The notes beneath the pieces are model-generated. The model did no database searches and had not been told where the DNA came from. It was given only the letters and a program-made list of their open reading frames with translations. The position numbers and the translations under genes are program-made. From a virus, in the IMG/VR virus record IMGVR_UViG_3300008266_000716, positions 1 to 35,941 of that record: a stretch of DNA of 35,941 bases; one strand, 5' to 3'. Positions 481 to 35,041 of this stretch are shown piece by piece (position 1 is the first letter of the stretch; every line of letters begins with the position of its first letter).

Positions 481-969
481 ATGAAAATAACTAATAATTT
501 AATAAAAAATTTAATTAAAGAAGCCATTGCTGATCGTATCAAAATGATAGACGAGGCTGGTGATATCGCTGCTTTAGAAGCTAAAATTAACAAAGTAGAA
601 GAAGACATTAAAGATGCTATGGATGTTAAATCATCATTAGTTTCTATGGCTGGTTTAAAATATTATGTTTCTCCTGAAATCGTAGGTGATATGATGGATG
701 ATATGGAAGTTAGTATTAAAGAATTGCAAGCTAAGAAAAAAGATTTAGAAGATCAGAAAAAAGCAATGGCTAAGAATACTAAAGGTCCTAAAAAATCTGA
801 AAAGAAAGAAGATAAAAAAGAGCTAGATGAAAGATTAAAACCCTCTATGGGTGCTGGAGCATATGTTAAAGATTTTAAAAAATCAAAAGCACCACAATTT
901 AAAGGTAAATCAAAAGCTAAAAAACAAGATATGGCTGTTGCCGCTTACTTGTCAGCTAAAAAGAAATAA
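481..969 (+). CDS. Tagged Lys-rich internal/head protein candidate
   Basis: Protein of 162 residues. Residues 1-15 contain the shared tag (NLIKNLIKEAIAD), with a possible prohead-protease site after LIKE (before A16). Residues 30-95 are a highly charged coiled coil. The last 50 residues are strongly basic and include GAGAYVKDFKKSKAPQFKGK. That AYVKDF..S.APQFKGKS-type motif is one I recall from uncharacterised proteins of T4-like phages, and it ends in an AVAAYL helix. A basic coiled-coil protein with a head-targeting-like N-terminus fits a DNA-associated internal head protein, but no enzymatic motif is present. It is followed at once by the next tagged gene (2-base gap). Confidence 0.75.
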   Translation: MKITNNLIKNLIKEAIADRIKMIDEAGDIAALEAKINKVEEDIKDAMDVKSSLVSMAGLKYYVSPEIVGDMMDDMEVSIKELQAKKKDLEDQKKAMAKNTKGPKKSEKKEDKKELDERLKPSMGAGAYVKDFKKSKAPQFKGKSKAKKQDMAVAAYLSAKKK

Positions 970-971
970 TA

Positions 972-1481
972 ATGATAAAATTACTTGATATATTAAGCGA
1001 AGCTAAATTAACTATTTCTGGTACGGATAAAGCAATAAAAATGTTAAAATCTGAATTAAGAAATAATAATGTTGATTTTGAAATAGAAGGAAATAAGGTA
1101 ATAGTTAATGATTCTCCTAAAGCTAAAATGGCTGTGAAGATGGTTAAAGAAAGAGTAGGAATGCAGTCAATAAAATTAGCTGAAGAAATAAAATCTGAAG
1201 CTACATTTACTAAAAAATATGATGATAGTCCTAAATTAAAAGGTAAACAAACTAAATTACCTGATGAAGTGCAAGCTAAAATTATAAAAGAAGGAGATCA
1301 CGAAGTAGCAATGGCTCAAGCTAGTTTAAAATCAATTATCAAATCTGCCGCCCAACTAATGAATAAATTAGGTAATATGGAGCGTGATATTCCAGGCTGG
1401 ATTCAAGATCACATCACAAATGCTGAAAATTATATCGATCAAGCTGCTCAAGGATTTCATGAACTAAAAAACGATGAATAA
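972..1481 (+). CDS. Tagged small protein, probable internal head protein
   Basis: Protein of 169 residues that begins MIKLLDILSEAKL, the clearest match in this window to the T4 internal-protein targeting peptide MKTYQEFIAEA; cleavage would fall between E10 and A11. Residues 14-58 look like a small alpha/beta domain. The C-terminal 55 residues contain a helical segment with ERDIPGWIQDHITNAENYI. This resembles a 'D[IL]P.W[IV]Q.KI..A..Y' motif I recall from many uncharacterised phage proteins. The gene overlaps the next one by 8 bases, so the pair is probably translationally coupled. No specific activity can be assigned. Confidence 0.75.
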   Translation: MIKLLDILSEAKLTISGTDKAIKMLKSELRNNNVDFEIEGNKVIVNDSPKAKMAVKMVKERVGMQSIKLAEEIKSEATFTKKYDDSPKLKGKQTKLPDEVQAKIIKEGDHEVAMAQASLKSIIKSAAQLMNKLGNMERDIPGWIQDHITNAENYIDQAAQGFHELKNDE

Positions 1482-2010
1482 AGCAATATTATTAGAAAAA
1501 TATGTTAAAAAAGCTGTTCAAATAGCTTTAAAGGAAGAAGAACAACAACAAAAACAAGTTGAAAAAGCAATGTATTTTATACATCGTTTTCCTGGTTTAA
1601 AAAATACATTAGAAGAATTAATGTCACCTGCTTTTGGTCGTTATATATCTGATATTTCTTTAATAGCTCCTAAACCAACTACGTTTGGCGTTGGATTAAT
1701 TAATGGACAAGACTTTACAGTAATATATTTAGGAAAAAGTAATTTTGCTGTAAAAGTATCTGGAAAAAAATACAATCCTATTAATATAGGAGAATCTGAA
1801 AGAGCATCACAAGCTATAGCAGATTTACTTGAATTAAATTATGCTCCTAGAGAATCTACAGAAGAATTATCATCACAACGTGATGATAGTATAAAAGCCG
1901 ATTTAGAAGCAGGAAATGCTTCTCAAATACCTGAAACACCACCATCACCACCATCTGAAAATCCTACCCCAGAAGAAACACCAGCATCTAAGAAAACTCC
2001 TGTTACTTAA
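1474..2010 (+). CDS. Tagged protein with Pro-rich tail
   Basis: Protein of 178 residues. The N-terminus (ILLEKYVKKAVQIALKEEE) is a looser version of the shared amphipathic tag. Residues 30-125 form a compact mixed domain without catalytic motifs (GQDFTVIYLGKSNFAVKVSG reads as beta strands). The last 45 residues are a low-complexity Pro/Glu/Ser/Thr tail (PETPPSPPSENPTPEETP). The start lies inside the end of the preceding gene. A probable internal or structural head protein by tag and context; function unknown. Confidence 0.65.
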   Translation: MNKAILLEKYVKKAVQIALKEEEQQQKQVEKAMYFIHRFPGLKNTLEELMSPAFGRYISDISLIAPKPTTFGVGLINGQDFTVIYLGKSNFAVKVSGKKYNPINIGESERASQAIADLLELNYAPRESTEELSSQRDDSIKADLEAGNASQIPETPPSPPSENPTPEETPASKKTPVT

Positions 2011-2055
2011 AATTTGGATAGGTAAAAAATAAGTTTTATCTTTAAAAAAAAACAT

Positions 2056-2800: not shown

Positions 2801-2839
2801 TGGCAAGATATTTTTATTATCTTTATAAAAATCAATAAA

Positions 2840-3277
2840 ATGAAAAGTCAAATATTACGCCAATTAATTAGAGAAACTATATCTCAATATCTTAAAGAAC
2901 AAGAAGATTTAACTCCTATAGACCCCGGTCCTGGACAAGAACCTGCTAATATCCCTTCACCAGATGAAGCACCATCAGAGGCAGAAACTCCTGAAACACC
3001 AGCAGGAACTATTACCACAGAACAAGCTAAACAACTTATTAAAGACACCAAAGGTAAATTTTTCACAGTAACTTTTATTAAAAAAGATGGATCAGAACGT
3101 GTAATGAATGCTCGTTTAGGGGTTAAAGTTTATTTAAAAGGTGGTGAATTACCCTATAATCCAGATGAAAAAGGATTAATTCCTGTTTATGATGTTAAAA
3201 CGGGTGGATATAGAATGGTAAATGTTTCTACTATTAAAAAATTAAAAATAGGTAATAGTGATTACACCGTACAATAA
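2840..3277 (+). CDS. Tagged small protein with Pro/Glu-rich linker
   Basis: Protein of 145 residues. The tag at residues 1-20 (ILRQLIRETISQYLKEQE) has a possible protease site after LIRE. Residues 22-58 are a low-complexity Pro/Glu/Ala linker. Residues 60-145 form a small, probably beta-rich domain (KFFTVTFIKKDGSERVMNAR...). This tail resembles small SH3-like phage domains with '.F.V.FIKKDGS.R.M..R.GV'; that is recall of a pattern, not a search result. Its stop codon overlaps the next start (TAATG), indicating coupled translation with the 953-residue gene. Confidence 0.7.
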   Translation: MKSQILRQLIRETISQYLKEQEDLTPIDPGPGQEPANIPSPDEAPSEAETPETPAGTITTEQAKQLIKDTKGKFFTVTFIKKDGSERVMNARLGVKVYLKGGELPYNPDEKGLIPVYDVKTGGYRMVNVSTIKKLKIGNSDYTVQ

Positions 3278-6138
3278 TGATAAGATTAGCTAATATATTT
3301 AAAGAGGTAAAAATACAGACCCCCGAAATAACCCCACCTTTAGATAAACAAATATTAAACCATTTAATAAAATCAATAGTTAAGTATATTGAATATGCTA
3401 ATATAGATATGTTTACTTTTTTATTAAATGATGATTATTATGGCGATATAATAAAAGAATATATATATGAACAAATGAAGTATAATCATTATGATTTAGA
3501 AGATATTAACTATAAATCTGATGAAAGTATAGAATCATATATAAAAGAACATCCTGAATTAAAACAATACGTAAACAAAAAAGCACTAGAATATTACCTT
3601 AAATCTATAAATTTAGGTCGAATGGTTAGTGATATTAAAAAAGAAGTTAAAGAAAAAGGATGGTGGAGTGGTTTAATAGATAATTATCTTGATTCTGATC
3701 AAGGACAAGAATTATTTGAACCTTATTTTGAGGATTTTATATATAAGAACTTTGATTTTGAATCATATTTAATAAAAATGTTAAATCAATCTGATTTATT
3801 TACTGAAGTAGTTAAAATTAGTGCTCCTGCTAGAATTCATGATTTAGATAAACCTGGAGTTAAGTTTGAAAATATTAAAATAGGAGATATATTACAATTT
3901 ACTTTATACCAACCTCAAATAGAAACAGTACGCCAAAAAGTAATAGGATTTAAACAAGATACTAATCCAATGCATGATGTAGGTGATATTCTTATATCTC
4001 AAGATTTAGATGATTACGGAGAATTAAGATCAGGAACAGATTATTGGGTTAAATTTTCTATAGAAAACTATTGGGAAGGAAAACCATCTAATATAAAAGA
4101 AAATATAATAAGAGAATACCCTGAAAGTAAAATTAATAGTTTATTAATTAAATGGGGAATAGATTCTACAAAAGACCAAGCTAAAGCAAATATCGCTCGT
4201 CAACTTATTAATAGATTTGACCAAATTAAAGGATCATTAAATGATAAATTAGATATAGTTATAATCCCTAATGAAATAAAAAACAAAGATGTTAAAGATA
4301 TAGATTTATATTCATTTGAAGACTTACAAAAATTAATCAATTCATACCCTGAAAATCCTGAAAAATCTAAAAAAGAAGCAATTAATAGGTTTGTAGAAAA
4401 ATTTGGAATAGATAAACCTACGGCTCAATCATATACGGCTCGTTTTATGGCAAAAAGAGATGCTTTAAAATTTGGAGTAAGAGACGGTATAGAAGAATTA
4501 GGACTTACAAAAGAAGATGTTTTAAGTTATATTCCTAAAAAATTACAACAAAATGATGCTTTTTTAGATCCTCGTAACTGGGGATGGCAAGAATTTGAAC
4601 AAATGCTAGATGCTTTATTCCCATCTCAAAAACAAGTAAGTGGAGAGGATATAAATTTAGCAGAAACAGATGCTGATAAGATATACAATAAAAATGGTAT
4701 AGAAATATATAAAGGAGATGATGTACATAAGTGTATATCATATAACCCTATATCTCAAACTACTAAAAGAAAAAAATATGGATGGTGTGTAACTCAAATA
4801 GGTAATACTAATTATGATTATTATAGATTTGGAGATAAAGCCCCTACATTTTATTTTATATTTGATCGAAGTAAACCATCTACTCCTGAACATGCTAGCT
4901 TTGACGATAAATGGCATGCTTTTGTAATTCAAGTAAATAAAGATAATAATTCATATATAGTAACTAGTGCCAATAACGATAGAGATGCTCCTGCTAAATC
5001 TTGGGAAGATATATCAAACATAGTACCTAAAGACACATGGGAAAAAATTAAAAATTTAAAAGATTATTTTAAACCAATTTCTTTATCTAGTACAGAACGT
5101 GGTAGAAAATTTGCCTCAGGCAAAAATTTATCTTTAGATGAGTTTAAAGAATTATCTCAAGACGAAAAAATACTATATGTTCAAGGTAAAGCATCAAAAA
5201 ATGCACTTACTTCTGAAATTTTAGCTATTTTACCTAAATATAAAATAAGTTTAGAGGGAAGATCAACAACATTAGCTAATGTTGCTATTGATAGTGGACA
5301 AAAATTTCCTTATTCTTTATTAAAAGATTATGAATCTTTAGCTAAACGATATGCTATATTTAGATTTAGACATACTAATTACAGTAAGGATCCAATACCT
5401 CTACCATATGTACAATATTTAGATGAACCTGCTAAAGAAACATATTTATCCAAATTTGGTGATAATGTATCATTTGAATTAATTGACCAATATTTTGGTC
5501 AAAATTTATTAGAGAAATCAGTAAATGAACAGGTTAAAGAATTAGGATTTATAAGTCCTGAATATATTAAATATATTAAAGATCCTAAATTAAGATCATT
5601 ATATGAATCATATTCTAAATTATATGGTAATTGGTTTAAAGGAGATAACTTTAATAATGAAGAAGCAATATCTAACATGACAGATATGCCAGAGCAAGTA
5701 ATCACCCCAGTTTATATAACTTATGATCAGTGGGAAGAATTATCTAGTACAGAAAAAAATACATTATTAAAATTAACTAATAAAGTAAATGGTAATGATA
5801 AGTTTTCGACTTTTCTATATGCTGCTCCTTATATAATTAAAGACGGTTCTAAAGAATATATATTACTTCCAACCTCAGTAGATACATCGGATTATTTACC
5901 ATATAAGACGTGGGTTTTAGTTGATAAAAACAACAATATTATTAAAGATAATATAAACGGTGAGGAGTCAAAAATAGGTGATGAACAATTAGGATATGGT
6001 TATTTTACAAGTAAACCAAAACGAGTATATTCTATGGACGATACTAATTTAGTAACTGGAGAAGTTAATGAAACTGAAAAATTATATGAAGATTGGGATA
6101 AATACCAATTAATGATTAGAGCAGGAATAATAAAATAA
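3277..6138 (+). CDS. 953-aa tagged protein, possible ejected internal protein
   Basis: Begins MIRLANIFKEVKI, matching the shared targeting-tag pattern, with a possible cut after IFKE. Residues 20-200 are helical and acidic. Around residues 470-570 lies a Tyr/Phe/Trp-rich domain with KCISYNP, YGWCVTQIGN, YDYYRFGD, TFYFIFDR, WHAFVIQV and VTSANN. I recall similar '.WC......YYRFG...TFYF..D' segments from other uncharacterised phage proteins, with no known activity. The C-terminal 380 residues show no family I can name. There are no membrane segments or cysteine clusters. Size, tag and solitary complexity recall T4 Alt, a head-packaged ejected ADP-ribosyltransferase, but I see no ADP-ribosyltransferase motif. 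The gene is last in its operon; a terminator follows. Confidence 0.8.
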   Translation: MIRLANIFKEVKIQTPEITPPLDKQILNHLIKSIVKYIEYANIDMFTFLLNDDYYGDIIKEYIYEQMKYNHYDLEDINYKSDESIESYIKEHPELKQYVNKKALEYYLKSINLGRMVSDIKKEVKEKGWWSGLIDNYLDSDQGQELFEPYFEDFIYKNFDFESYLIKMLNQSDLFTEVVKISAPARIHDLDKPGVKFENIKIGDILQFTLYQPQIETVRQKVIGFKQDTNPMHDVGDILISQDLDDYGELRSGTDYWVKFSIENYWEGKPSNIKENIIREYPESKINSLLIKWGIDSTKDQAKANIARQLINRFDQIKGSLNDKLDIVIIPNEIKNKDVKDIDLYSFEDLQKLINSYPENPEKSKKEAINRFVEKFGIDKPTAQSYTARFMAKRDALKFGVRDGIEELGLTKEDVLSYIPKKLQQNDAFLDPRNWGWQEFEQMLDALFPSQKQVSGEDINLAETDADKIYNKNGIEIYKGDDVHKCISYNPISQTTKRKKYGWCVTQIGNTNYDYYRFGDKAPTFYFIFDRSKPSTPEHASFDDKWHAFVIQVNKDNNSYIVTSANNDRDAPAKSWEDISNIVPKDTWEKIKNLKDYFKPISLSSTERGRKFASGKNLSLDEFKELSQDEKILYVQGKASKNALTSEILAILPKYKISLEGRSTTLANVAIDSGQKFPYSLLKDYESLAKRYAIFRFRHTNYSKDPIPLPYVQYLDEPAKETYLSKFGDNVSFELIDQYFGQNLLEKSVNEQVKELGFISPEYIKYIKDPKLRSLYESYSKLYGNWFKGDNFNNEEAISNMTDMPEQVITPVYITYDQWEELSSTEKNTLLKLTNKVNGNDKFSTFLYAAPYIIKDGSKEYILLPTSVDTSDYLPYKTWVLVDKNNNIIKDNINGEESKIGDEQLGYGYFTSKPKRVYSMDDTNLVTGEVNETEKLYEDWDKYQLMIRAGIIK

Positions 6139-6192
6139 AATATAGGTCGATTCATAGCCGATCGCTCGTAAGAGACAACATTATAGAGCTGT

Positions 6193-6226: not shown

Positions 6227-6261
6227 GAAAGTCAAAATAAAATTTATAAATTTATAAAACA

Positions 6262-7596: not shown

Positions 7597-8463
7597 ATGA
7601 AAAAATCAGAACTAAAACAAATCATTAAAGAAGAGCTTAATAATATTCGTGAAGAAGAATCTTCAGAATCTAAAAAAGATAAATTAGATACTGCATTACA
7701 AAAAGCGGGTATTGATACCTCAAAAGCTATTAATGTTAAAATAGTTAATAAGACAACAGGAAAAGAACAAGTAGTTAAATATGATGGAGAATCTTTTTCA
7801 AATCCTGCTATGAAAGAAGGATTAAAAGATAAATTAGTAATTGCTGCGACTTGTTTAATATTATCATCAGGTATGATTTCTTGTACAAAAGAAGATTCAT
7901 TAGAACCTAATAAGATTGAAAATTCATTAGAGGCAAACGTAGATTTTTTAAATACACAAGGATTAAATGTACCATTTGAGGTGATAGCAAAAACTATGTT
8001 CCCTCAAAAAATGAAGTATGCAAAAGATAGAGATAGGCAAACCCCTACTTTATCAATGGGAAAAATAGATTCTGTGGTTGTGAATCCAAATACACCATGG
8101 ATAGGATATTGGAAATTTACAGATGATTGCAGATCTAATAATAAGCAAGTTATGATTTGGGTACAACCTGATGATGATCCCATGAGCGGAACTATATATT
8201 TTGGATATCAAAAAAATAATAATTACGACTACGGCTCGATTACTATACAAGGACACAAGTACACTTTAAGTGCATACTCAATCAAAGCGTTTAAGTATGA
8301 TGCAAAAACAGCACGTGCTACCGTAAGTATTTCTTGTCCAGAAGTAGATAGAGGTAAGATTTTTACTTTAGAAATAGATTACTCTGGAAAAACTATGCGT
8401 ATTACGAATTGGGGTGGTGGAAATGCTATACAAGTTAATGGTTGGGGCGGATTTAAATGGTAG
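7597..8463 (+). CDS. Tagged protein fused to lipoprotein-like domain
   Basis: Protein of 288 residues with an unusual order. Residues 1-22 are the shared tag (LKQIIKEELNNIREEE). Residues 23-70 form a charged linker/small domain. Residues 72-96 read like a complete bacterial lipoprotein signal: MKEGLKDK, a hydrophobic stretch VIAATCLILSSGMIS, then Cys96 followed by TKED. The remaining 190 residues are beta-rich and Trp/Gly/Tyr-rich, ending WGGGNAIQVNGWGGFKW. There is an in-frame ATG at 7810 where the lipoprotein part would begin, so a second shorter product (217 aa) is possible. The lipobox plus acidic residues is typical of Bacteroidota lipoproteins. This could be a fusion of a phage tag to a host-derived lipoprotein, or a protein delivered to the envelope. 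Function unknown. Confidence 0.75.
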   Translation: MKKSELKQIIKEELNNIREEESSESKKDKLDTALQKAGIDTSKAINVKIVNKTTGKEQVVKYDGESFSNPAMKEGLKDKLVIAATCLILSSGMISCTKEDSLEPNKIENSLEANVDFLNTQGLNVPFEVIAKTMFPQKMKYAKDRDRQTPTLSMGKIDSVVVNPNTPWIGYWKFTDDCRSNNKQVMIWVQPDDDPMSGTIYFGYQKNNNYDYGSITIQGHKYTLSAYSIKAFKYDAKTARATVSISCPEVDRGKIFTLEIDYSGKTMRITNWGGGNAIQVNGWGGFKW

Positions 8464-8482: not shown

Positions 8483-9070
8483 ATGACTCCTATTACTTTA
8501 ACCTTATCATCTAGGATACCATTTGGTCAATATAAAGGTCGATTAGTATCTGATATTTTAAAATTAGATCCAAAATATCTTAAATGGTTGTGGGTTGAAA
8601 AAAAAGCAATTACTCCCGATAATACATTAAAACAAAGACTAAAAGAAAATATGAAAATTAAACAATTACGTGAAGCTATTAAACAAATAATTCGCAAAGA
8701 ACTAAACGAAAATCAGCCAGCTCCTTCTAAACCAGAAAGAGAAACTACTACTATTCCTGCTAGACCTGGTACTAAAGAAAAACCAGATGAAAAACGTAGA
8801 AAAATCGGCAGACCAGATGTAAAACCAGCTCCTAAAAATTTAAAGGAAGAGGAAATGATTAATAAAATTACCGCTCGTTTTATAAAAGCTAAAAAAACAA
8901 ACGAATCCGTAAATCCTAATTCAAAATATACCCCAAAATTTACTGATGAACAAATCAATAAAATGACGCTAAAACAAGCTGAATTTGCTTTAAAAAGTGT
9001 AATATATGTACCTCAAAATAAAGAAGTTAGAAATAAAATATTAGCTAGAATTAAACAATTGAAAAAATAA
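8483..9070 (+). CDS. ExoX-C-terminus-like/tagged fusion protein
   Basis: Protein of 195 residues from the first ATG. Residues 10-45 (IPFGQYKGRLVSDI ... YLKWLW) match the short 'PFGKYKG..[IL]...DP.YL.WL' module found at the C-terminus of exodeoxyribonuclease X-like proteins and in small stand-alone proteins. Residues 57-78 (MKIKQLREAIKQIIRKELNE) are a canonical copy of the shared tag, which elsewhere is at the extreme N-terminus. A Pro-rich basic linker (about 80-115) and a basic helical tail (FTDEQINKMTLKQAEFAL) follow. An in-frame ATG at 8651 would give a 139-residue protein starting exactly with the tag. Either start, or both, may be used. The stop overlaps the next ATG (TAATG). Confidence 0.65.
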   Translation: MTPITLTLSSRIPFGQYKGRLVSDILKLDPKYLKWLWVEKKAITPDNTLKQRLKENMKIKQLREAIKQIIRKELNENQPAPSKPERETTTIPARPGTKEKPDEKRRKIGRPDVKPAPKNLKEEEMINKITARFIKAKKTNESVNPNSKYTPKFTDEQINKMTLKQAEFALKSVIYVPQNKEVRNKILARIKQLKK

Positions 9071-11186: not shown

Positions 11187-11193
11187 TATTTAT
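11186..11193 (+). promoter_or_regulatory. ATATTTAT box overlapping first ATG at 11192
   Basis: Exact octamer overlapping the kinase stop region and the first possible ATG (ATATTTATG). This overlap is one reason to prefer the ATG at 11219, which is 25 bases downstream. Confidence 0.45.
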
Positions 11194-11218
11194 GCACACA
11201 GAAATAAACGCAAATATC

Positions 11219-12133
11219 ATGACTCCTAAACAAATACGTGTTTTAGTTAAAGAAGTAATATCAGAAGTAGGATTATTTACCTTAAAAAACCCGGTAGACG
11301 CTACTAAAGGTCTATCAACAGTAATTGATCCTGATGATAACACAGAAAAATCATCTGCTTTTCAACAAAAATACAAGAAAGTAACAGAAATGGCTCGTAA
11401 AGCTAAAGGATACCAAATTGTAAATCCTGAATTTGATACTACACCATATGCTGATAAAACAATAAGTGGGATATCAATGGCTTCTATTATTGATTATATT
11501 AAAACAAATCCCGGTGTAGAAAAAAAAGATATTCAAACTCAATTTAATTTTGTTCGCCCACAGATAGCTAACGCATTGATAAATGGTTTAAAAGATGCTG
11601 GTATTATAGCTAAAATGGGTGAGATAGAGGTAGATGATGAAACAGGAGAAGTAATAGTAACGGATGAACCTGTAACCCAAACATCACGAGCAGGTGCTGA
11701 AGATTTTTTCATTGGTAATAGAGCAAGTAATTTTTTTACATCAGGTGAACCTAGTTCATCAAACGATGAAATAGAATTTCCTGAAGAACCAGAGATGCCT
11801 GAATTACCAATAAATAAATTATCTTCAATAGGAGGATTATCCGACGAGGACTATAATGCTTGGATGGATTATTCTAAATTTAAAGAACGTTTAGCTAGAA
11901 CTAAAAGTGCCTTAATACAAGTTAAAAAAATGAGTAGAGGTAGAGATGATTTATCATTAGGTTCAGATGAAATGGAACGTTTAACTAAATTAAAAGCATC
12001 TCTTGAACAACGTATGCAAAATGTTGTAAATTCAAACGAATATGTTAAAAATAAAGTAGAACAAGAAAAAAATATTCCTTCTGAAAATGAATTAATAGAA
12101 AGATTTCAAAAATTAGCAAACATAGATCAATGA
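11219..12133 (+). CDS. Tagged protein ending in scaffold-like LANI motif
   Basis: An ATG at 11192 opens the frame, but I choose 11219. It puts the shared tag (MTPKQIRVLVKEVISEVGL) at the N-terminus, as in the other tagged proteins, and frees the ATATTTAT box. The product is about 304 residues. Residues 80-140 (after a variable linker) read like a winged-helix fold: SMASIIDYIKTNPGVEKKDIQTQF...IANALINGLKDAGIIAKMGEI. An acidic Pro-rich linker follows (EFPEEPEMPELP), then a coiled coil. The C-terminus ERFQKLANIDQ matches the end of the scaffold protein (SRMQKLANIIK). It could bind DNA and be packaged with it; that is inference. Stop and next start overlap (ATGA). Confidence 0.7.
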   Translation: MTPKQIRVLVKEVISEVGLFTLKNPVDATKGLSTVIDPDDNTEKSSAFQQKYKKVTEMARKAKGYQIVNPEFDTTPYADKTISGISMASIIDYIKTNPGVEKKDIQTQFNFVRPQIANALINGLKDAGIIAKMGEIEVDDETGEVIVTDEPVTQTSRAGAEDFFIGNRASNFFTSGEPSSSNDEIEFPEEPEMPELPINKLSSIGGLSDEDYNAWMDYSKFKERLARTKSALIQVKKMSRGRDDLSLGSDEMERLTKLKASLEQRMQNVVNSNEYVKNKVEQEKNIPSENELIERFQKLANIDQ

Positions 12134-16394: not shown

Positions 16395-17249
16395 ATGAAG
16401 ATTAAACATAACAAATTTCGTAACACCGGAGTATTATTTGAGCTTTTAACTAGACAAATAACTAGTGATATCATATCTAATAAAGATTCATCAGCAGTAG
16501 GTTTAGTTAAAAAGTATTTTAATAAAACTGAATTAGCTAAAGAATATAAATTATATCAAATTCTTATAAGTTCTAAATCACTTACTGAGAGTAAAGCTGA
16601 AGTATTTATAAATAGTACTTTAAATGCTTCTTTACGTTTAAATAAATCTACTTTACGTAAAGAAAAATATAATTTAATTAAAGAAATTCGCGAACAGTAT
16701 AATATAGAAGAATTTTTTAAAACCAAAATTAATCATTATTCACAATATGCTGCTATTTATAATCTAGTAGAGGCTCAAAATTCAAGTGAATTTATTGAAC
16801 CTAATCAAATTATAAATAATAAAATAACATTGCTTGAACATATTACTCGTAAAGAAGTAAATAAAGACCAAGTTAAAGATCGTATTCTTGAAGAATATGC
16901 TAATATGGATAAAGGTACTCGTTTATTAGCTTATAGAGTATTATTAGAAAGATTTAATAAGAAATATTCTACTTTAAATAATAAACAAAAAACAGTATTA
17001 AAAGAATATATTAATAATATTACTAATACAACTGCATTAAAAGAATTTGTTAATACTCAATATGTTTTAATTACTAAAGAACTAACAGAATTAGTTAAAA
17101 ATGTTGAGGATAAAACAATTCAGATTAAACTAAATGAAGTAGCTACTCTATTACAGCCTATTAGTAAAACTCAAAATGTAAAAGATGAAAATATTATCTC
17201 TTTACTTCAATATCATCAATTAATTAACGAATTAACCTCTATTAAATAA
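16395..17249 (+). CDS. Unknown 284-aa helical protein, head-operon
   Basis: Starts KIKHNKFRNTGVLFELLTRQITSDI and is almost wholly helical and highly charged (many Lys/Glu, few aromatics). In T4 the slots after gene 20 hold the prohead core proteins 67 and 68. The length and composition do not match those, so I do not assign one. I recall proteins with the 'KFRNTGVLFELLTRQIT.D.L' start lying next to the portal gene in other T4-like phages, without a known function. An assembly or core role is inferred. The stop overlaps the next start (TAATG). Confidence 0.7.
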   Translation: MKIKHNKFRNTGVLFELLTRQITSDIISNKDSSAVGLVKKYFNKTELAKEYKLYQILISSKSLTESKAEVFINSTLNASLRLNKSTLRKEKYNLIKEIREQYNIEEFFKTKINHYSQYAAIYNLVEAQNSSEFIEPNQIINNKITLLEHITRKEVNKDQVKDRILEEYANMDKGTRLLAYRVLLERFNKKYSTLNNKQKTVLKEYINNITNTTALKEFVNTQYVLITKELTELVKNVEDKTIQIKLNEVATLLQPISKTQNVKDENIISLLQYHQLINELTSIK

Positions 17250-18040
17250 TGAATTTATCTTTATTAAAATATATTATTAAAGAAGAACTAGCAAATAAAT
17301 TAAAGGAAGCTACTCACCCTTGGTATATATCAGCTGATGGGTATTATAAAGGAACTAATCCTCCATTAAATCCTCCCGGGCCTGTGCATACTGGTAATGT
17401 ATCTCAATACTTAAAACCAAATGTAACAGTATATAATAATAAAGGAGAATCTAAAACAATTAAAACAGTATCAGACTCTCATTTACAATTTTCTGATGGT
17501 ACTGAAGATTATTTTAAGAATTGGTTTCCACAAAAACCAATTAATGAAGAATCAGCAACTGGCGCTATTGGTGTTGGGGCTGGTCCTATTATGACTCCAT
17601 ATGCTTTTGCTAAAAAGGGACAAAAAACTAATAAAGCTACCCAAACAGCAATGAAACAAGGATTTAAAAAAGCATCAGGTATGCCTAAAAACTCTAAGAT
17701 GTTTGATTATAAAGAACTATGGCCTGGTAAAAAATCAGCTATGAATGAAGTACTAACTAATATAATTAAAGAAGAATTATTAAATGAAACTTCATATAAT
17801 AAATTTAAAAATGAAGTTAAATACAGAACTAAAAATGAAATGCTTCATAAAAGTATACGTGAAGTAAAACGTAAATTAGAGGAAGTAGAACGTTTAGTTG
17901 AATATACTACTCGTATTAAACAAGAATTAAGCGAAAATGAAGAGGGTGTAAGTTATTGGAAACGTAGTTTAAAAGCTATTAATGAAATAAGTGAAGTATC
18001 AAATAAAATTAGTAACAAAATAAAATCTATCTATCAATAA
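17249..18040 (+). CDS. Tagged protein carrying a second, internal tag
   Basis: Protein of 263 residues. The tag at residues 1-20 (LLKYIIKEELANKLKEA) is followed by a small Pro/Gly-rich domain. Residues 30-95 include the beta-type stretch NVTVYNNKGESKTIKTV. A stretch of the type TGAIGVGAGPIMTPYAFAKK (residues 104-123) then leads to a second, near-identical tag, MNEVLTNIIKEELLNE (165-180). The end is an 80-residue coiled coil. The internal tag begins at an in-frame ATG (17741), so the gene may be a fusion of two tagged proteins, or may make a separate 99-residue product. A probable internal/core protein of the prohead. Confidence 0.7.
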   Translation: MNLSLLKYIIKEELANKLKEATHPWYISADGYYKGTNPPLNPPGPVHTGNVSQYLKPNVTVYNNKGESKTIKTVSDSHLQFSDGTEDYFKNWFPQKPINEESATGAIGVGAGPIMTPYAFAKKGQKTNKATQTAMKQGFKKASGMPKNSKMFDYKELWPGKKSAMNEVLTNIIKEELLNETSYNKFKNEVKYRTKNEMLHKSIREVKRKLEEVERLVEYTTRIKQELSENEEGVSYWKRSLKAINEISEVSNKISNKIKSIYQ

Positions 18041-20103: not shown

Positions 20104-20718
20104 ATGAATAAACAATTATTAATAGACCATATTCCTTTTAATGTAGCTAAACTACAACCCATTAACGAAGGTAAAACACCTAGTGATGGGATGATGCGTA
20201 TTAAAGGCAAATTACAAGAAGCCAATAAAAAGAATGGTAATGGACGTGTTTACCCGTTAAAAACATTAAAAGTACAAATCGACAAATACATGAATGGTCC
20301 TATGACCTCTAGAACATCAACTGGAGAATTAGACCATCCTGAATCATCTATTATTAACTTAAGCAATATATCCCATTTAATTACAAAAATATGGTGGGAA
20401 GGTAATGACGTAATGGGTGAACTAACTTTATTAAACACACCTTCTGGTAAAATAGCACAAGAAATTATTAGAGCAGGTATACCTTTAGGTATATCATCAA
20501 GAGGTATGGGTTCAGTTAAACAAATTGGTGAAACTGTTGAAGTACAAGATGACTTTGAGTTACTATGTTGGGATCTTGTAAGTGTACCTTCAACCCCTGA
20601 AGCCTATATGACATTAGCTGAAGGAAAACAATATAAATCTATTAAAGATTATACAAAAGTAAACGAATTAATTACAGAAATTATATGTACTCAAACAGGA
20701 GTATGTAGTTTATGTTAA
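20104..20718 (+). CDS. 21: Prohead core protease (T4 gp21-like)
   Basis: Serine protease that matures the prohead by cutting scaffold, capsid precursor and internal proteins. Protein of 204 residues; T4 gp21 is about 212. The catalytic His lies in TGELDHPES (His78) and the Ser in PLGISSRGMGS (Ser131 or Ser132), in the order and spacing of the T4 His85/Ser140 pair. FELLCWDLVSVPSTPEAYM (about 151-169) is the conserved strand-loop seen in this family. The C-terminus ends CTQTGVCSLC. It is flanked by core-like and tagged genes, which are its expected substrates. Encoded just upstream of scaffold and capsid as in T4 (21-22-23). Confidence 0.95.
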   Translation: MNKQLLIDHIPFNVAKLQPINEGKTPSDGMMRIKGKLQEANKKNGNGRVYPLKTLKVQIDKYMNGPMTSRTSTGELDHPESSIINLSNISHLITKIWWEGNDVMGELTLLNTPSGKIAQEIIRAGIPLGISSRGMGSVKQIGETVEVQDDFELLCWDLVSVPSTPEAYMTLAEGKQYKSIKDYTKVNELITEIICTQTGVCSLC

Positions 20719-20737: not shown

Positions 20738-21082
20738 ATGAAAACACAATTAAACGAACAATTTAAAAGAATGCAGCGATTAGCTAATATTACTGAAGCT
20801 GCCGATCAAAAAATGCAAGATATAGCATTAAAATTTTCTAATACTGCCCCAAATACACCTCCAGGTGCTAAAGCAGGAGAAACTCCTAAAACAAGTGATG
20901 TAACTAATTTAACTAAATTAATGACAACTAATACATCTCTTTTAAATAGATTAAAAACAGTTAATAGTAACAATGAAATAATTGAATTTTTAACTTATAT
21001 CTTAAATACCATTAATCCTAAAGTAACAGGAGTTAATAGATCTGCTTTAAAAAAGATAATTGACGATAGATTTACCCAATAA
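20738..21082 (+). CDS. Small tagged protein with LANI motif
   Basis: Protein of 114 residues that begins TQLNEQFKRMQRLANITEA. The MQRLANI piece matches the end of the scaffold (MQKLANI), and ITE followed by A is a plausible prohead-protease site. The middle is a low-complexity Ala/Pro/Thr linker (NTAPNTPPGAKAGETP), and the end is a helical bundle of about 50 residues. No catalytic motif. A probable core or internal protein processed by the protease encoded immediately upstream; its stop overlaps the next start (TAATG). Confidence 0.7.
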   Translation: MKTQLNEQFKRMQRLANITEAADQKMQDIALKFSNTAPNTPPGAKAGETPKTSDVTNLTKLMTTNTSLLNRLKTVNSNNEIIEFLTYILNTINPKVTGVNRSALKKIIDDRFTQ

Positions 21083-21918
21083 TGATTAAACTATTAGATT
21101 TATTAAAAGAAATTAAACTTGGGGAAGCCATAGTAAAAGTACCTCAGGAAATTTTATCTAAATCTAAAGAAGCATTTAATTATATTAAGCAGTATTTAGA
21201 AGATTTAAAAACTAAATCACCTAAAAGTTATCAAAAACCTTATATTGATTCTAAATTTAAGGATTATTTTAAATTTAAAGATCTTAAAAATCAAGACTTA
21301 ATTATTAGTATAGGATTATATAATGATCCTGAGGACGCGGGAGCTGGAAGAATGGATACTGTTAATGATGTTTTATTAATTAATTTAGCCTATTTTAATC
21401 CTGAAGATTTAGAATCTTTTGAAGATATAATAGAACATGAATTAGTTCATGCTATGGATCCTAAAGTTAGAGATAAAAAATTATTTGGTGCTATGTATGC
21501 TAAGAAAGGAGCAGAACCCAGTGGTAATAAATTAAATTTATCTAAAAGTGGAGGTAAATCCGAATATACTACTAATTTTGAAAAGTACCTAAAATCACCT
21601 TGGGAATTTGATGCTTTTACAGCACCATTAATTAATACTATTAAATTTAATTTAAATAAATTCCCCAATGATAATACCTATAGGAATTTACTAATCCAAT
21701 TACTATCAGATATAAAAACTAAAAGTATTGAGCAGATTGTTAATGATAGCAAATATGAAAAATTACCTTGGTTTTTTAGTAAAAAAGAATGGGATTCAAA
21801 AAATTGGGATACTATAAATAATGCATATCAGTCCGAATTATATAAAATGAAAGCTTGGTCAACTAAACCAACTTTATATCAACGTTTTACAAAAAGATTA
21901 GGACAGGAAATAACATAA
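21082..21918 (+). CDS. Tagged HExxH zinc metallopeptidase-like protein
   Basis: Protein of 278 residues. The N-terminus MIKLLDLLKEIKLGEA is a near-perfect shared tag, with a possible cut after LLKE. Residues 110-127 contain the zinc site EDIIEHELVHAMDP: H119-E120-x-x-H123. The third ligand may be Glu175 in SPWEFDAFT (171-179), as in peptidases with 'HE..H ... [WY]E.[DE]A' spacing of about 50 residues. It probably hydrolyses peptides in a Zn-dependent way, but the target is unknown. It lies between protease gp21 and scaffold, and it has its own downstream dyad and terminator. The tag suggests packaging in the head, so it may act in the prohead, or in the host after ejection. Also possible: it degrades core fragments. 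Confidence 0.8.
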   Translation: MIKLLDLLKEIKLGEAIVKVPQEILSKSKEAFNYIKQYLEDLKTKSPKSYQKPYIDSKFKDYFKFKDLKNQDLIISIGLYNDPEDAGAGRMDTVNDVLLINLAYFNPEDLESFEDIIEHELVHAMDPKVRDKKLFGAMYAKKGAEPSGNKLNLSKSGGKSEYTTNFEKYLKSPWEFDAFTAPLINTIKFNLNKFPNDNTYRNLLIQLLSDIKTKSIEQIVNDSKYEKLPWFFSKKEWDSKNWDTINNAYQSELYKMKAWSTKPTLYQRFTKRLGQEIT

Positions 21919-22095: not shown

Positions 22096-23280
22096 ATGTC
22101 AAACAAAAAACTATTTGAAGAGGCTATCGTTGACGCTAAAGCCGTTCGCGAAGCAGCATTATTAAACGCAAAAGAGGCCCTTGAAGAAGCTTTAACTCCA
22201 AGTATTCAAAACATGTTAGTTGCAAAATTAAACGAAATGGACATGGATGATGAATATATGGAAGAGGAACAAATGGAAGGCCAAATTGATGAAGAAGATT
22301 ACATGCAACCACACGACACTGCAGATGAAATGGGTCAAATGGGGTATGGTAACAAAGAACAAGGCAAACCCGGTCATAGAGATACTGGTCTTGAAGAAGA
22401 ATTCGATTTATCTGCTATTCTAGCTGAATTAGAAGCTGAAGAAGCTAATGAAAACTTAGCCGAAGCTAAAAAAGGTGAAGAAGAAGAAGAAGAAGAAGAA
22501 GAAGGTGAAGAAGAAGGTGAAGAAGAAGGTGAAGAAGAAGAAGAAGAAGAAATGGAAGTAGGCGACATGTCTGTTACTGATCTTAAAAACCTAATTAAAG
22601 ATATTGTATCACAAGAATTAGAAGCTGAAGAAATGGAAACACCTGCTGACGAAGAAGCTGAAATGGACATGGATATGGACATGGATGCTGAAATGGGCGA
22701 TGAAGAAATGGAAATGACTGATGAAGAAGAAATTGACCTAGAAGAGCTATTAGCTGAATTAGATTCAATGGATGGTAATATAAACGAATACGCAGAAACA
22801 CAACCAGACGAAATGTTAAGAGCTATTTGTAATGATTACCCACAACATGCTTCATGTAAAGGACTTAAAGAAGCTCGCAAAATCCAAAAGATTAAATCAA
22901 AACCCGTTATGACCAATAAGGATAAAGGAGAAATGAAAGAAGCTATTAATGTAATTAATGTTCTTCGTAAAGAACTTAACGAAACTAACTTATTAAATGC
23001 TAAGTTACTTTATGTTAATAAAATTTTCAAATCTAAAAATTTATCTGAATCACAAAAACTAAATGTGATTACATCATTTGATAAAGCAACCACACCTAAA
23101 GAAGCTAAAATGGTTTATGAATCATTAGAAGCTAATTTAAGTGCTGTTAAAAAGAAATCACCTATTAAGGAATCTTTAGGATTTGCTTCAAAAGCAGCCG
23201 GTATGGCTCCTAAGAAACAAATCGTAGAATCAAATGACGTTATTTCACGTATGCAAAAACTAGCTAACATTATTAAGTAA
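22096..23280 (+). CDS. 22: Prohead scaffold/core protein (T4 gp22-like)
   Basis: Protein of 394 residues, assigned by position (21-22-23 order) and composition. The N-terminal helix is FEEAIVDAKAVREAALLNAKEALEEAL. Residues 127-153 are an almost pure Glu stretch broken by Gly, and residues 185-225 are rich in Asp, Glu and Met. The C-terminal half is a Lys-rich coiled coil with KNLSESQKLNVITSFDKA. It ends SRMQKLANIIK, a motif shared with two other proteins of this window. Scaffolds of this kind form the prohead core and are then degraded by the gp21 protease. No sequence motif beyond this is diagnostic, so homology to T4 gp22 is inferred rather than seen. The gene follows a terminator. Confidence 0.8.
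   Translation: MSNKKLFEEAIVDAKAVREAALLNAKEALEEALTPSIQNMLVAKLNEMDMDDEYMEEEQMEGQIDEEDYMQPHDTADEMGQMGYGNKEQGKPGHRDTGLEEEFDLSAILAELEAEEANENLAEAKKGEEEEEEEEEGEEEGEEEGEEEEEEEMEVGDMSVTDLKNLIKDIVSQELEAEEMETPADEEAEMDMDMDMDAEMGDEEMEMTDEEEIDLEELLAELDSMDGNINEYAETQPDEMLRAICNDYPQHASCKGLKEARKIQKIKSKPVMTNKDKGEMKEAINVINVLRKELNETNLLNAKLLYVNKIFKSKNLSESQKLNVITSFDKATTPKEAKMVYESLEANLSAVKKKSPIKESLGFASKAAGMAPKKQIVESNDVISRMQKLANIIK
22474..22551 (+). repeat. GAA/GGT triplet repeat in scaffold gene
   Basis: Twenty-six in-frame codons, almost all GAA (Glu), interrupted by four GGT (Gly). Such a microsatellite could change length by slippage, in steps of a residue. Confidence 0.85.
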
Positions 23281-23303: not shown

Positions 23304-24914
23304 ATGAACATTCAACAATTATTAGAATCCTCAAACCAATTTAAATCGGTTCAGGATGACGCAAAACGCCTTCAAAACAAATGGAGGAAATCAGGCCTAT
23401 TAGAAGGTCTAAAAGATGACCATAGCTGTAACACAATGGCTATGTTGTTAGAAAATCAAGCAAAACAATTAGTAGTAGAAACCTCTACTACAGGTAATCA
23501 ATCAGGTGGTGCTGGAACGTACAGCGGTGAAAGCTGGAATGGTGTTGCTTTACCATTAGTTCGCCGTGTATTCGGAGAAATCGCTGCTAAAGAATTCGTT
23601 AGTGTACAACCAATGAACTTACCTTCAGGTCTTGTATTCTATTTGGATTTTAAATACGGTACTGGTGTTAAACCATTCACTAATAATGGTTCTTTATATG
23701 GTGCTAATGCAACAACAAACGTAACTGATATCGCATCCGCTTCATTATATGGTGCTGGAAGATTTGGTTATTCAATCAACCAGTTCTCTGCTTCTGCAGT
23801 TGCTGTTACTCAATCAATTGCTTGGTCTGACTTTAACTTAGATTCTGACTATAGCTCTTCATTCTCTACTTACAAGAAAATTGCTGTACCTCTTCCTTCT
23901 AGTGCTGATACTAATGGCGTTCGCGCATTCGTTTTCACTTCAGGTTCAATTACAGGTGCTGAAATTTTACAAACATACACTACAGTAACTAATAATACTG
24001 CTTCATTCGTTATCACTGGTTCTGCCGTTAATGGTACTGCTACTGGTCCAGTTTTAAGTGGTGGTGTTGTATTATACTATGATGTAGCTCCTACTACTAC
24101 TACACGTGGTGATTTCGAAGATGCTTCAAATGCTGGTTACCCTAACGCTCAAAGCAATACTACAATTGCTATCCCAGAAATTAACATTCAGTTAAAATCT
24201 GAAGCAATCGTTGCTAAAACACGTAAATTAAAAGCACAATGGACACCTGAATTCGCTCAAGATTTGAACGCTTACCATAGCGTAGATGCTGAAGCTGAAT
24301 TGACTGGTATTTTATCTCAATACATTTCAATGGAAATTGATTTGGAATTGTTGGATATGTTGATTCAAAACGCTTTTACAGTTGATTACTGGTCAGCAGT
24401 TAACAACCAAGCAGTAACTTCTACAGGTGTAAGTAATAATAACTTAGGTTTCTATAATACTCAAGGTGGTTGGTTCCAAACTTTAGGAACTAAGTTACAA
24501 AAAGTATCTAACAAGATTCATCAGTTAACAATGAGAGGTGGCGCTAATTTCTTAGTTACTTCACCTACAGTTGCTACTATATTAGAATCAATCCCTGGAT
24601 TTGCTTCAGATGGTGATGGCGAGAAAATGGAATACAATTTCGGTATCCAAAAAGTTGGTACTTTAAACAGCCGTTACAAAGTATACAAAAATCCATACAT
24701 GACTGAAAATATAATCTTGATGGGTTATAAAGGTGCTCAATTCTTGGAATGTGGTGCTGTATTTGCTCCATATGTTCCGTTAATCATGACTCCATTGTTG
24801 TACGATCCAAACACTTTCACACCAAGAAAAGGTTTGATGACTCGTTACGCTAAGAAAATGATACGTCCCGATTATTATGGGAAAATCTATGTAGCTGGTT
24901 TGAACACTATCTAA
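23304..24914 (+). CDS. 23: Major capsid protein precursor (T4 gp23-like)
   Basis: Main shell protein of the head; hexamers form the icosahedral surface. Protein of 536 residues; T4 gp23 is 521. The N-terminal 59 residues are a helical, charged propeptide (LLNKWRKSGLLEG-like region, NKWRKSGLLEGL at 25-36), probably removed by the prohead protease after QLVVE (E59/T60). The mature part shows the gp23 landmarks: LVRRVFGEIAAKEFVSVQPMNLPSGLVF near 87-114 and the block with KSEAIVAKTRKLKAQWTPEFAQDLNAYHSVDAEAELTGILS. GTLNSRYKVYKNPY... ILMGYKGAQFLECGAVFAPYVPL closes it, leading to KGLMTRYAKKMI. Codons here are less AT-extreme than in neighbours, as for a highly expressed gene. Confidence 0.97.
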   Translation: MNIQQLLESSNQFKSVQDDAKRLQNKWRKSGLLEGLKDDHSCNTMAMLLENQAKQLVVETSTTGNQSGGAGTYSGESWNGVALPLVRRVFGEIAAKEFVSVQPMNLPSGLVFYLDFKYGTGVKPFTNNGSLYGANATTNVTDIASASLYGAGRFGYSINQFSASAVAVTQSIAWSDFNLDSDYSSSFSTYKKIAVPLPSSADTNGVRAFVFTSGSITGAEILQTYTTVTNNTASFVITGSAVNGTATGPVLSGGVVLYYDVAPTTTTRGDFEDASNAGYPNAQSNTTIAIPEINIQLKSEAIVAKTRKLKAQWTPEFAQDLNAYHSVDAEAELTGILSQYISMEIDLELLDMLIQNAFTVDYWSAVNNQAVTSTGVSNNNLGFYNTQGGWFQTLGTKLQKVSNKIHQLTMRGGANFLVTSPTVATILESIPGFASDGDGEKMEYNFGIQKVGTLNSRYKVYKNPYMTENIILMGYKGAQFLECGAVFAPYVPLIMTPLLYDPNTFTPRKGLMTRYAKKMIRPDYYGKIYVAGLNTI

Positions 24915-32617: not shown

Positions 32618-32623
32618 AAAATA

Positions 32624-33778: not shown

Positions 33779-33780
33779 AT

Positions 33781-34134
33781 ATGATTAAACTAACAGACAT
33801 ATTAAATAAAAATTTATTACTTGAATCACTTGCTATATATGAAGTAGAAGTAATGATTAAAGTAGAAAGACAAGCAAATAAAGTAGATATATATAATGAA
33901 ATTAGAGCTATTGAAGGAGTAGTTGTTGTTAAAGTAGAACAAAATACTTACCTAAATACTTTAATTACAGATCAAACTGAATATTCATTATTACATATGA
34001 AATATTTAGTATACACTGATCCAATTGATGCTATTAAAGAGATTAAAACTAGAGCAATATCTTCTGATAAAATATCTGGTTTATTAAAATTTATCCCTAG
34101 ACTAAAAACTCTAGAAAAGAAAACTGTTTTATAA
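33781..34134 (+). CDS. Tagged 117-aa protein between neck genes
   Basis: Starts MIKLTDILNKNLLLESLA, a variant of the shared tag in which the critical Glu after ILN is replaced by Lys, with LLLES a few residues on. Residues 20-65 (EVEVMIKVERQANKVDIYNEIRAIEGVVVVKVEQN) look like a small alpha/beta (ferredoxin-like, ACT-like) fold. The end is basic (RLKTLEKKTVL). Its location between the two neck genes and the weaker tag make an internal-head role less certain than for the others. Overlaps the next gene by one base (TAATG). Confidence 0.65.
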   Translation: MIKLTDILNKNLLLESLAIYEVEVMIKVERQANKVDIYNEIRAIEGVVVVKVEQNTYLNTLITDQTEYSLLHMKYLVYTDPIDAIKEIKTRAISSDKISGLLKFIPRLKTLEKKTVL

Positions 34135-34670
34135 TGAGTTTATTCGGAGCAAATAGAGATATAAGTTTATTTAGACACATAAATAGAGAGTTAATTAATG
34201 ATATTATTGAGCAAAAAGTAGGATATTATAAAATAGTATTAGATCGCTCTATACCTAATATATATGGAGAATCATTAAAAAAAATATATAACGATCCTGT
34301 ATTACTTAATTGTTTAATAGAAAGAGGAGACACCAATCCATTAACAAATGAGTTTGGTATGGACATTACTCGTAACATAAAATGCCGCTTTTTACGCGAT
34401 GATCTCGCGGGTATTGATTTAAGCACCGAGCTCGGCCCAGACGCTAGAGGCTTCGCATATAACATAGTACCTGAAGTAGGAGATGTTGTATTATGGAATA
34501 ACGATTATTATGAAGTTAATAATGTTAATGAAAACCAATTAATAGTAGGAAAAGATCCTGGTTATTCTTATTCAGATAATACAAATAATTTTGGTTCATC
34601 GTGGTCTATTATTGTAGAATGTTTTTACATAAGACCAGAAAAAGTAAATATTGCTCAAGTAAGATTATAA
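34134..34670 (+). CDS. 14: Neck protein (T4 gp14-like)
   Basis: Protein of 178 residues; T4 gp14 is 256. Residues 35-75 contain an IPNIYGESLKKIYNDPV segment, aligned loosely with the T4 'VSPDLIFGEDLKNKF' region. Residues 115-140 (VPEVGDVVLWNNDYYEVNNVNENQLIVGKDPGY) parallel T4 '[31 protein letters not shown]'. The position after gp13 supports the call. Probably forms part of the neck that joins head and tail. Shorter at both ends than T4 gp14. Confidence 0.75.
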   Translation: MSLFGANRDISLFRHINRELINDIIEQKVGYYKIVLDRSIPNIYGESLKKIYNDPVLLNCLIERGDTNPLTNEFGMDITRNIKCRFLRDDLAGIDLSTELGPDARGFAYNIVPEVGDVVLWNNDYYEVNNVNENQLIVGKDPGYSYSDNTNNFGSSWSIIVECFYIRPEKVNIAQVRL

Positions 34671-34677
34671 TACTTAT
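34670..34677 (+). promoter_or_regulatory. ATACTTAT box (variant) upstream of gene at 34682
   Basis: One-mismatch version of the octamer, 4 bases before the ATG at 34682; supports that start over the upstream one at 34601. Confidence 0.3.
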
Positions 34678-34681
34678 TAAC

Positions 34682-35041
34682 ATGATTAAATTATTAGACA
34701 TAATAAAAGAAGTTGAAATTCCTGTAGTAGGAATAGGTGGTGAAAAAATAGCTGCTTTTAAACCTAAACAAGATGATGAAGCTTTTAAAAGAGGATATAA
34801 AAGTATAAAAACTTCTATAAATCCTGAAACAGGTACTTTTACACAAGAATTTGAAGCTCTTCCAAAGTTTGAGGAAATAAAAAAAAATATTCTTAAATAT
34901 AGAAAAGAAATTCAAGTATTTAAACATTCAGCTAATGAAGATATAGCTAAAGTAGCTAAAGAAGCTAATAATCACTTATATAAAGCATCTCAATCTATAT
35001 TAGCTTTAGATAAAATGTTAGAATTACAAAGAAAACAATAA
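34682..35041 (+). CDS. Tagged 119-aa protein
   Basis: The frame is open from an ATG at 34601 that lies inside the gp14-like gene. The ATG at 34682 gives the tag MIKLLDIIKEVEIPV at the N-terminus, so I take 34682. The tag fits the shared pattern very well (cut site after IIKE). The rest is a charged helical protein with an FKPKQDDEAFKRGYKSIKTSI segment and a C-terminal coil. No catalytic motif. A probable internal or structural protein; gp15-like gene follows 2 bases later. Confidence 0.75.
   Translation: MIKLLDIIKEVEIPVVGIGGEKIAAFKPKQDDEAFKRGYKSIKTSINPETGTFTQEFEALPKFEEIKKNILKYRKEIQVFKHSANEDIAKVAKEANNHLYKASQSILALDKMLELQRKQ

Follow-up and report, generated by a model that had tools for sequence, protein, structure and literature searches.

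In phage T4, the otherwise dissimilar internal proteins IPI–III and Alt carry a short N-terminal capsid targeting sequence (CTS) that ends in an [LI]xE motif, and the phage encodes the prohead protease gp21. IPIII requires no more than its first 10 residues, with residues 4 and 7 serving targeting and residues 8 and 10 serving processing (PMC9026906; here and below, statements cited by PMC number refer to excerpts of the papers). T-even internal proteins are diverse defence proteins in which only the CTS is conserved (PMC3012670), and in phage P1 the first 30 residues of DarB suffice to direct a reporter into heads (PMC9024508). Several inner-head proteins of the giant phages SPN3US and phiKZ are likewise reported, in excerpts of the literature, to be cut by a gp21-related protease. 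Here we describe a large set of N-terminal peptide tags, probably of comparable function, in IMGVR_UViG_3300008266_000716, a 35.9-kb virus contig with a T4-type head block whose whole length of 35,941 nucleotides is called the window below, and in related phages.

Tag classes and controls

A sequence-only reading of the window had named 13 gene starts as carrying a short amphipathic N-terminal peptide, and inspection of the translations confirmed this for all 13. By our own sorting, they comprise five starts of class A (MIKLxDILxE), seven of class B (xLKxIIKEEL) and one of class D (INExKRMQxLAGIxxE) (Table 1); a fourth class, C (NFDLKKFLVEN), comes from relatives and lies outside the window's 13. 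The same reading had distinguished two types, and peptides like classes A and B are indeed present, but class D is separate and was overlooked. Its strict pattern for one type, MIKLLDI[LI]xE[AVI], fits the starts at 972 and 34682 and no other of the 13, while the [LI][KRS]E ending that it ascribed to most members occurs within the first 30 residues in 10 of 13. The tags at 8651 and 34682 begin at in-frame ATGs within longer open reading frames (ORFs; 8483 and 34601, respectively), and the corresponding genes of relatives start at the same tag.

The tags are not chance matches. Across 1222 distinct ORFs from five large phage records plus the window, class A matched 19 start positions versus none of 3632 internal methionines, class D 14 versus 1, class C 4 versus 0 and class B 27 versus 13, with 5 of the 13 internal class B matches (four sites) corresponding to a scaffold segment described below. 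Regular expressions for the tags matched 125 of 963 ORFs in protease-anchored loci versus 2 of 844 in neutral loci (viral contigs drawn by a neutral 16-mer), and a class A DNA pattern was found in at least 120 IMG/VR contigs, versus 0 contigs for a permuted pattern of the same codons. One neutral contig, L404, has a class C-like start at 773-1312 (MDNFDLRKYLAENKL) and a B-like start at 2997-6899 (MKNFKRLIKEAL).

An unsupervised comparison of N-termini, whose counts take in any shared start, signal peptides included, gave concordant values: 24 of 215 ORFs in Flavobacterium phage immuto and 29/232, 23/222, 18/214 and 14/208 in four large relatives, versus 0 to 4 of 141-157 for internal-methionine controls in these five genomes, and 7/39 versus 0/31 in the window. 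Counts were 18/232 versus 2/190 for Mel-JY01, where many of the starts are by eye paralogues or non-tags, and 11/246 versus 6/168 for T4, where MKTYQEFIAEA appears twice in identical form, beside several segB-like starts.

That the tag would reveal further members, as had been predicted from the window alone, was borne out across the genome and its relatives. The immuto genome carries the window's classes plus class C (M..NFDLKKFLVEN.LT) on 14 ORFs by regular expression, and G002, G005, G007 and G009, large relatives of 171 to 183 kb that are four of the nine protease-anchored records searched, have 10 to 16 matches each, counts that take in a few evident false matches (for example, the exonuclease at window position 2056 and its G002 homologue). 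When consensus peptides for classes B, C and D were run by tblastn over 50,697 phage records (E up to 10), a search of low sensitivity at 20-25 residues, the four immuto records alone matched.

Portability and cargo

Grouping the 791 tagged starts in fetched loci by downstream homology gave 246 clusters, 209 of them having an A or a D tag; where loci had been picked independently of tags, 271 tagged starts made up 83 clusters. Separation was at E 1e-4, distant homologues may therefore be split, and a few of the 246 consist of internal starts, one example being a 39-member scaffold cluster. In round numbers, the tags are borne by about 200 clusters without detectable mutual homology. When 150 tagged cluster representatives were aligned, only one Leu and one Glu reached 90%, both within the tag; because the representatives were picked by tag regular expression, the alignment shows just that nothing else is shared. 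Judged from predicted translations, this matches a T4-type CTS in being a short N-terminal peptide shared by dissimilar proteins.

Homologous cargo can also carry different classes. Connected-component clustering yielded 17 mixed-tag clusters, of which nine, with 10 class pairs, passed a strict pairwise test requiring homologous downstream regions with different tags. Three of these are families of window genes: homologues of 2840 bear B or D tags (one swap pair is 78.6% identical over 98 residues), those of 1474 bear B or A, and the 26 homologues of the C-terminal module of 972 were called A (9), C (5), D (2), B (3) or unclassified (7), the three apparent B calls being judged artefacts of truncated starts. 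Such swaps, together with the roughly 200 dissimilar cargo clusters, uphold the proposal that the tag is a portable module. Two further swap clusters were considered as window-gene families and rejected, and are not counted as such: cluster 59 had no match to 7597 in direct comparison, and cluster 15 (A/B) matched 33781 only weakly (E 0.004).

Class C starts are also present in a head block at L507:9746-10717 (MADFDFKKFIVENKL) and 1802-2806 (MADNFDMKKFLTENKL) (G018), the former occupying the place of the 11192 gene in relatives, which would be another tag swap. Tags sometimes lie internally or at the C-terminus of proteins, a feature missed by the sequence-only reading. Within single ORFs, there are two D copies in L051:9439-10506 and an A start with an internal D in L018:10611-12122, as if tagged units had been fused into a polyprotein.

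Most of the 150 representatives matched no Pfam model. The 22 models matched in all include SOD, ART-PolyVal, Tox-ART-HYD1, Zeta_toxin/AAA, 2'-5' RNA ligase/Acb1, thioesterase, methyltransferases, ParB, WYL_2 and LRR, these named models resting on one member each and several falling below the curated cut-off. Cargo includes superoxide dismutase, ADP-ribosyltransferase (ART)-like, zincin-like and 2H-phosphoesterase-like proteins, and four clusters, among them that of window gene 21082, have HE[LM]xH motifs. The tagged superoxide dismutase matches bacterial enzymes from about residue 29, with the preceding residues made up of an A tag and linker, which argues that the tag is an add-on. A class A-tagged superoxide dismutase is encoded at L297:8750-9451 on a 10-kb viral contig, and this phage may bring its own antioxidant enzyme. 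In Mel-JY01 (L484), three neighbouring A-tagged starts (276-923, 923-1102 and 2056-2715), paralogous by eye, encode proteins with an ART-like RVWH[LV]T pattern, also by eye; a Pfam scan of two of the three gave no match.

Predicted structures were obtained for a tagged zincin-like protein (predicted local distance difference test (pLDDT), 69; tag residues 1-17 below 50) and for the 11192 product (pLDDT, 67). Confidence in the latter model is good over residues 70-140 and 220-290, approximately, and a C-terminal helix spans 298-308. Foldseek searches with these two models gave no match at E < 0.001.

Association with a prohead protease and its cut-site motif

The gp21-type protease that had been proposed at 20104 is borne out by its PF03420 match, which spans profile positions 19-190 of 198 and is thus near full-domain, and by the ELxHP and GxSSRG motifs, kept as in T4 gp21 (ELDHP, 20326-20340; GISSRG, 20488-20505). 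Domain match and motifs together place the predicted product in Peptidase S77.

Tag-bearing IMG/VR contigs frequently encode this family. Among those of at least 40 kb, S77 was found in 24 of 39, versus 5 of 27 neutral contigs; at 100 kb or more the counts were 12/13, four of the 13 having also come from the protease search, and 1/4, that one barely above the cut-off. Tags are hence not equally common without S77, the outcome that the sequence-only reading had named as counting against it. The 15 tag-bearing contigs without S77 also lack a T4-type major capsid protein (MCP; 0/15 versus 22/24 with S77) and so are most simply fragments lacking the head block. The S77-less contig of at least 100 kb, the 124-kb G042, has neither an MCP nor a terminase match, and a terminase match occurs in 2 of the 15: G030, at the contig end, and G018. 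In the first 14 kb of G018, the head genes from terminase and portal onward run toward the contig start, with C and D tags among them, and the contig start truncates the head block about where the protease would follow. This contig sample held no tagged head block that was complete yet lacked S77 and, by gene content, the tags are encoded together with an S77 prohead protease.

A candidate cut site can be recognized in the MCP propeptide, where [LIVMF]xE sites at window residues 8, 34, 50 and 59 have Glu in 43, 45, 44 and 45 of 45 MCPs (window, relatives, Mel-JY01 and RM378, a long-standing far-T4 isolate; T4 is left out of the count). At all four sites P3 is hydrophobic in every row with Glu, and in the alignment residue 59 falls at FLTE|A of T4 gp23. 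Similar motifs follow the tags: [LIVM]xE lies within the next 8 residues of 59 of 64 D tags (random-window rate, 11%), and [LIVMF]xE ends at residue 10 in 43 of 58 M[IVL][KR]L starts (background, 53/2018). Within the first 30 residues of window genes, the looser [LI]xE is present in 12/13 tagged versus 13/27 other genes (p = 0.007) and thus separates weakly on its own. An ending in a gp21-type [LI]xE motif, as in a T4-type CTS, is accordingly a feature of the predicted tagged proteins.

Resemblance to the scaffold

We compared the tags with 57 scaffolds found by position, or by BLAST to the window scaffold where there was no adjacent MCP, and not chosen by motif; this set replaced an earlier one of 65 sequences that held at least two 11192-family proteins. 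All 57 end in an R[MWF]QxLA[GN]I-type motif with 0 to 5 residues behind it. Seeded with 38 N-terminal tags and no scaffold, a D profile scored above 95% of shuffles in 57/57 scaffolds, at relative position 0.98. The reverse profile, built from scaffold ends, found 62 stretches in non-scaffold ORFs (i-E up to 1), of which 48 were N-terminal, 8 C-terminal and 6 internal. The B profile matched 50/57 scaffolds at a fixed place, about 0.43 of their length, in a segment of the M[ST][VI]xDLKDLIKDI type, and the first 40 scaffold residues gave a weak signal (A, 41/60; B, 47/60). By these profile comparisons, tag D appears to copy the scaffold C-terminus and tag B to resemble its internal segment. In the 11192 family, the C-terminus of 45 of 47 homologues resembles that of the scaffold in its A[GN]I motif, and a B-type start lies in front.

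Three further candidates were rejected: class A as a mimic of the full-length scaffold or MCP (4/57 scaffolds, 0/43 MCP N-termini), class C as a scaffold mimic (too few seeds, 3, for a profile; 3/47 in the earlier scaffold-set test) and an N/G variant of LA[GN]I tracking the scaffold across phages, which was not borne out.

More distant scaffolds retain part of the resemblance. The Mel-JY01 scaffold ends in RMKKLAGIVK, its D score being reached by 2/500 shuffles, and that of RM378 ends in RIKRLAGL, with a weak D score reached by 51/500; the B profile was not significant in either (76/500 and 23/500). Since RM378 lacks A, C and D tags, the motif probably existed first in the scaffold and was copied from there into the tag.

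Genomic context

The window MCP is 58.9% identical to that of immuto, the nearest isolate, 49.1% to Mel-JY01 and 39.0% to RM378; identity to the listed T4-types of Aeromonas, Klebsiella, Vibrio and Campylobacter is about 25-28%. On this basis, the window represents an immuto-related head-gene block of a far-T4 phage, with a divergent gp23 nearest to those of Bacteroidota phages and RM378.

Table 1 Tagged genes and head-block genes of the window
Position	Strand	Feature	Tag class	Remarks
481..969	+	Tagged protein (NLIKNLIKEAI...)	B	Homologues: 8/9 class B, 1 unclassified
972..1481	+	Tagged protein (MIKLLDILSE)	A	C-terminal module with A, C or D tags in relatives
1474..2010	+	Tagged protein	B (B-like)	A-tagged homologues exist; 28/48 homologues unclassified by regular expressions
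2840..3277	+	Tagged protein with WYL_2 (Sm-like) domain	B	Two homologues with D instead
3277..6138	+	953-residue protein of unknown function (MIRLANIFKE)	A (variant)	
7597..8463	+	Tagged protein	B	Internal lipoprotein-like segment 7831-7884; one B-tagged homologue
8651..9070	+	Tag at internal ATG of ORF 8483-9070	B	Preceded by an ExoX-like C-terminal segment; relatives have comparable separate genes
11192..12133	+	Tag (11219-11272) plus scaffold-like C-terminus (12098-12130)	B	Near terminase
12829		Terminase		Head block
14457		Portal		Head block
17249..18040	+	Tagged conserved head-block protein	B	Second internal B segment 17741-17788
20104..20718	+	Prohead protease, Peptidase_S77 (T4 gp21 type)		PF03420, 6.7e-29; phrog_207
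20738..21082	+	Tagged protein	D	Tag 20738-20797
21082..21918	+	Tagged zincin-like protein	A	HELVH 21436-21450
22096..23280	+	Scaffold (gp22 position)		B-like segment inside (22567-22620) and D-like motif at the C-terminus (23239-23277)
23304..24914	+	MCP		Propeptide with the four conserved [LIVMF]xE sites
33781..34134	+	Tagged protein (MIKLTDILNKNLLLE)	A (variant)	Own cluster of 21 members, all class A
34682..35041	+	Tagged protein (MIKLLDIIKE)	A	Start inside ORF 34601

Behind its tag, the 7597 protein has a lipoprotein-signal-like stretch (KLVIAATCLILSSGMISC) at residues 79-96, and on one reading its product, if delivered, would insert into the host envelope. An Endonuclease VII/HNH-like gene, possibly a homing insertion, lies between the MCP and PhoH genes (24989-25558). 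Elsewhere, one record holds a tandem pair of T4-type MCP genes (G006:C1:61213-64403), and an MCP match at G036:C1:42196-43707 contains one in-frame TAA that could reflect an intron, recoding or an assembly error.

Discussion

We interpret these tags as interchangeable capsid-targeting propeptides, at least two of which would mimic docking motifs of the scaffold, on cargo that is packaged, cut and delivered, and place the probability of this reading at roughly 0.78. During head assembly, the tag would dock its protein into the prohead core, classes D and B presumably through the scaffold's own contacts, and the shell would then close around cargo of any fold. The S77 protease encoded at 20104 would cut after [LI]xE near the tag end, as the motif suggests, freeing cargo that would stay with the DNA and, by analogy with T4 and P1, probably be delivered into the next host. 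Tag D reproduces the end of the scaffold and adds a cut site behind it, and tag B resembles the internal segment, so these two probably act by displacing the scaffold motif that they imitate. The residue roles reported for T4 IPIII fit the layout seen here, with hydrophobic positions followed by Glu. We infer docking, import into proheads, cleavage and ejection from features read in the sequences: the tag classes, their N-terminal placement, the S77 link, the swaps, the scaffold resemblance and the cut motif. The sequence-only reading, which had proposed import and gp21-type cleavage, holds up in its portable tag, S77 tie, expected cut motif and further members; the separate class D, the likeness to the scaffold and the tag swaps had escaped it.

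Several observations weigh against this interpretation. Fourteen of the 15 homologues of 3277 were not called tagged, although these match only parts of the protein, and 'untagged' calls among window-gene homologues, this set included, are unreliable, many being visibly tagged and missed by regular expression or start choice. An early [LI]xE is present in 13/27 other window genes, 13/61 class B seeds come from the 11192 family itself, and the class A profile found only 4/57 full-length scaffolds and 0/43 MCP N-termini. Being homologous, the 57 scaffolds amount to essentially one ancestral element rather than 57 independent matches. RM378, which has S77 and a similar scaffold end, gave 4/148 in the unsupervised comparison versus 4/113 in the control, and a genome-wide regular expression search found no A, C or D tags and 1 B match. 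The neutral contig L404 (44.6 kb, no S77 match) carries a C-like tag, and no virion proteomics for these phages was found in the literature.

The tagged proteins could instead be disposable core proteins, like T4 gp67 and gp68, that are shredded by the protease once the prohead is built and never delivered. Such a role would suit the 17249 and 11192 families, which are conserved in the head block and have more than one tag-like segment or a scaffold-like end, and gp21 does cut T4 core proteins into fragments (PMC9026906). However, the superoxide dismutase, ART-like, P-loop and zincin-like cargo look like folded enzymes, unlike scaffold fillers, and each enzyme-type cargo occurs in few of the loci seen; we consider this explanation unlikely. 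We consider it more improbable still that the tag docks to another phage assembly or compartment, such as the baseplate, a membrane or a replication site, with [LI]xE being incidental. Amphipathic helices in general bind many partners and [LI]xE is common in this genome, but the match of class D to the scaffold C-terminus in 57/57, the tie to S77 phages and a cut motif in register all speak for the prohead instead. Lastly, several tagged genes adjoin, as they might if the shared starts had simply arisen with duplicated genes or mobile gene-start modules and had no targeting role. This we find barely credible: class A codons differ synonymously among window genes, so these starts do not stem from DNA duplicated recently, homologous cargo shows class swaps while the hydrophobic positions and Glu persist, and tags are found on about 200 clusters.

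Within the preferred reading of capsid-targeting propeptides, a further and doubtful step is that the classes form an address code, in which D would stand for the scaffold C-terminus, B for the internal helix and A possibly for the N-terminus, with tag choice setting the core site and copy number. If true, the tagged clusters could be read as a catalogue of what far-T4 phages inject.

How a CTS is recognized found no answer in the excerpts of the cited literature, and a tag copying the scaffold C-terminus offers a direct and testable one, namely that cargo is enclosed by posing as scaffold. The tag also serves as a search key that, from sequence alone, finds a large and mostly unannotated set of proteins that aquatic phages probably inject, which are candidates for roles in taking over the host or countering its defences. 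For loading proteins into phage heads, a choice of portable tags whose release site is defined would be useful too.

In the open-access literature searched, no report on the virions of immuto or on tags of this kind was found, and the terms 'internal protein', 'prohead' and 'scaffold' are absent from a far-T4 paper (PMC4360716). Among described systems, the propeptides of the giant phages differ in that several exceed 100 residues and the shared N-terminus mentioned in the excerpt is that of gp53/gp54 only (PMC5694885). The packaged set, which had been called unusually large, is so relative to T4, with its three internal proteins and Alt, but not relative to SPN3US-type giants, which also package many ejection proteins (PMC5694885). 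The Dar proteins of P1 lack an N-terminal consensus by the BLAST of their authors, according to the excerpt (PMC9024508). T4 remains close in cargo, as its Alt protein is an ADP-ribosyltransferase (PMC9026906) and the tagged proteins here include ART-like ones, and the T4 tag (FIAEA), as read from the T4 record, appears to resemble the N-terminus of the T4 scaffold gp22 (LIAEA). It differs in that no class has a regular expression match in the T4 genome, whereas the window and its relatives have several interchangeable classes, many more cargo clusters, and resemblance to the C-terminal and internal parts of the scaffold. A tag of such function is known in T4 and P1; what we did not find in the open-access literature, and what would be new here, is several interchangeable classes, apparently copied from the scaffold, on some two hundred clusters of proteins.

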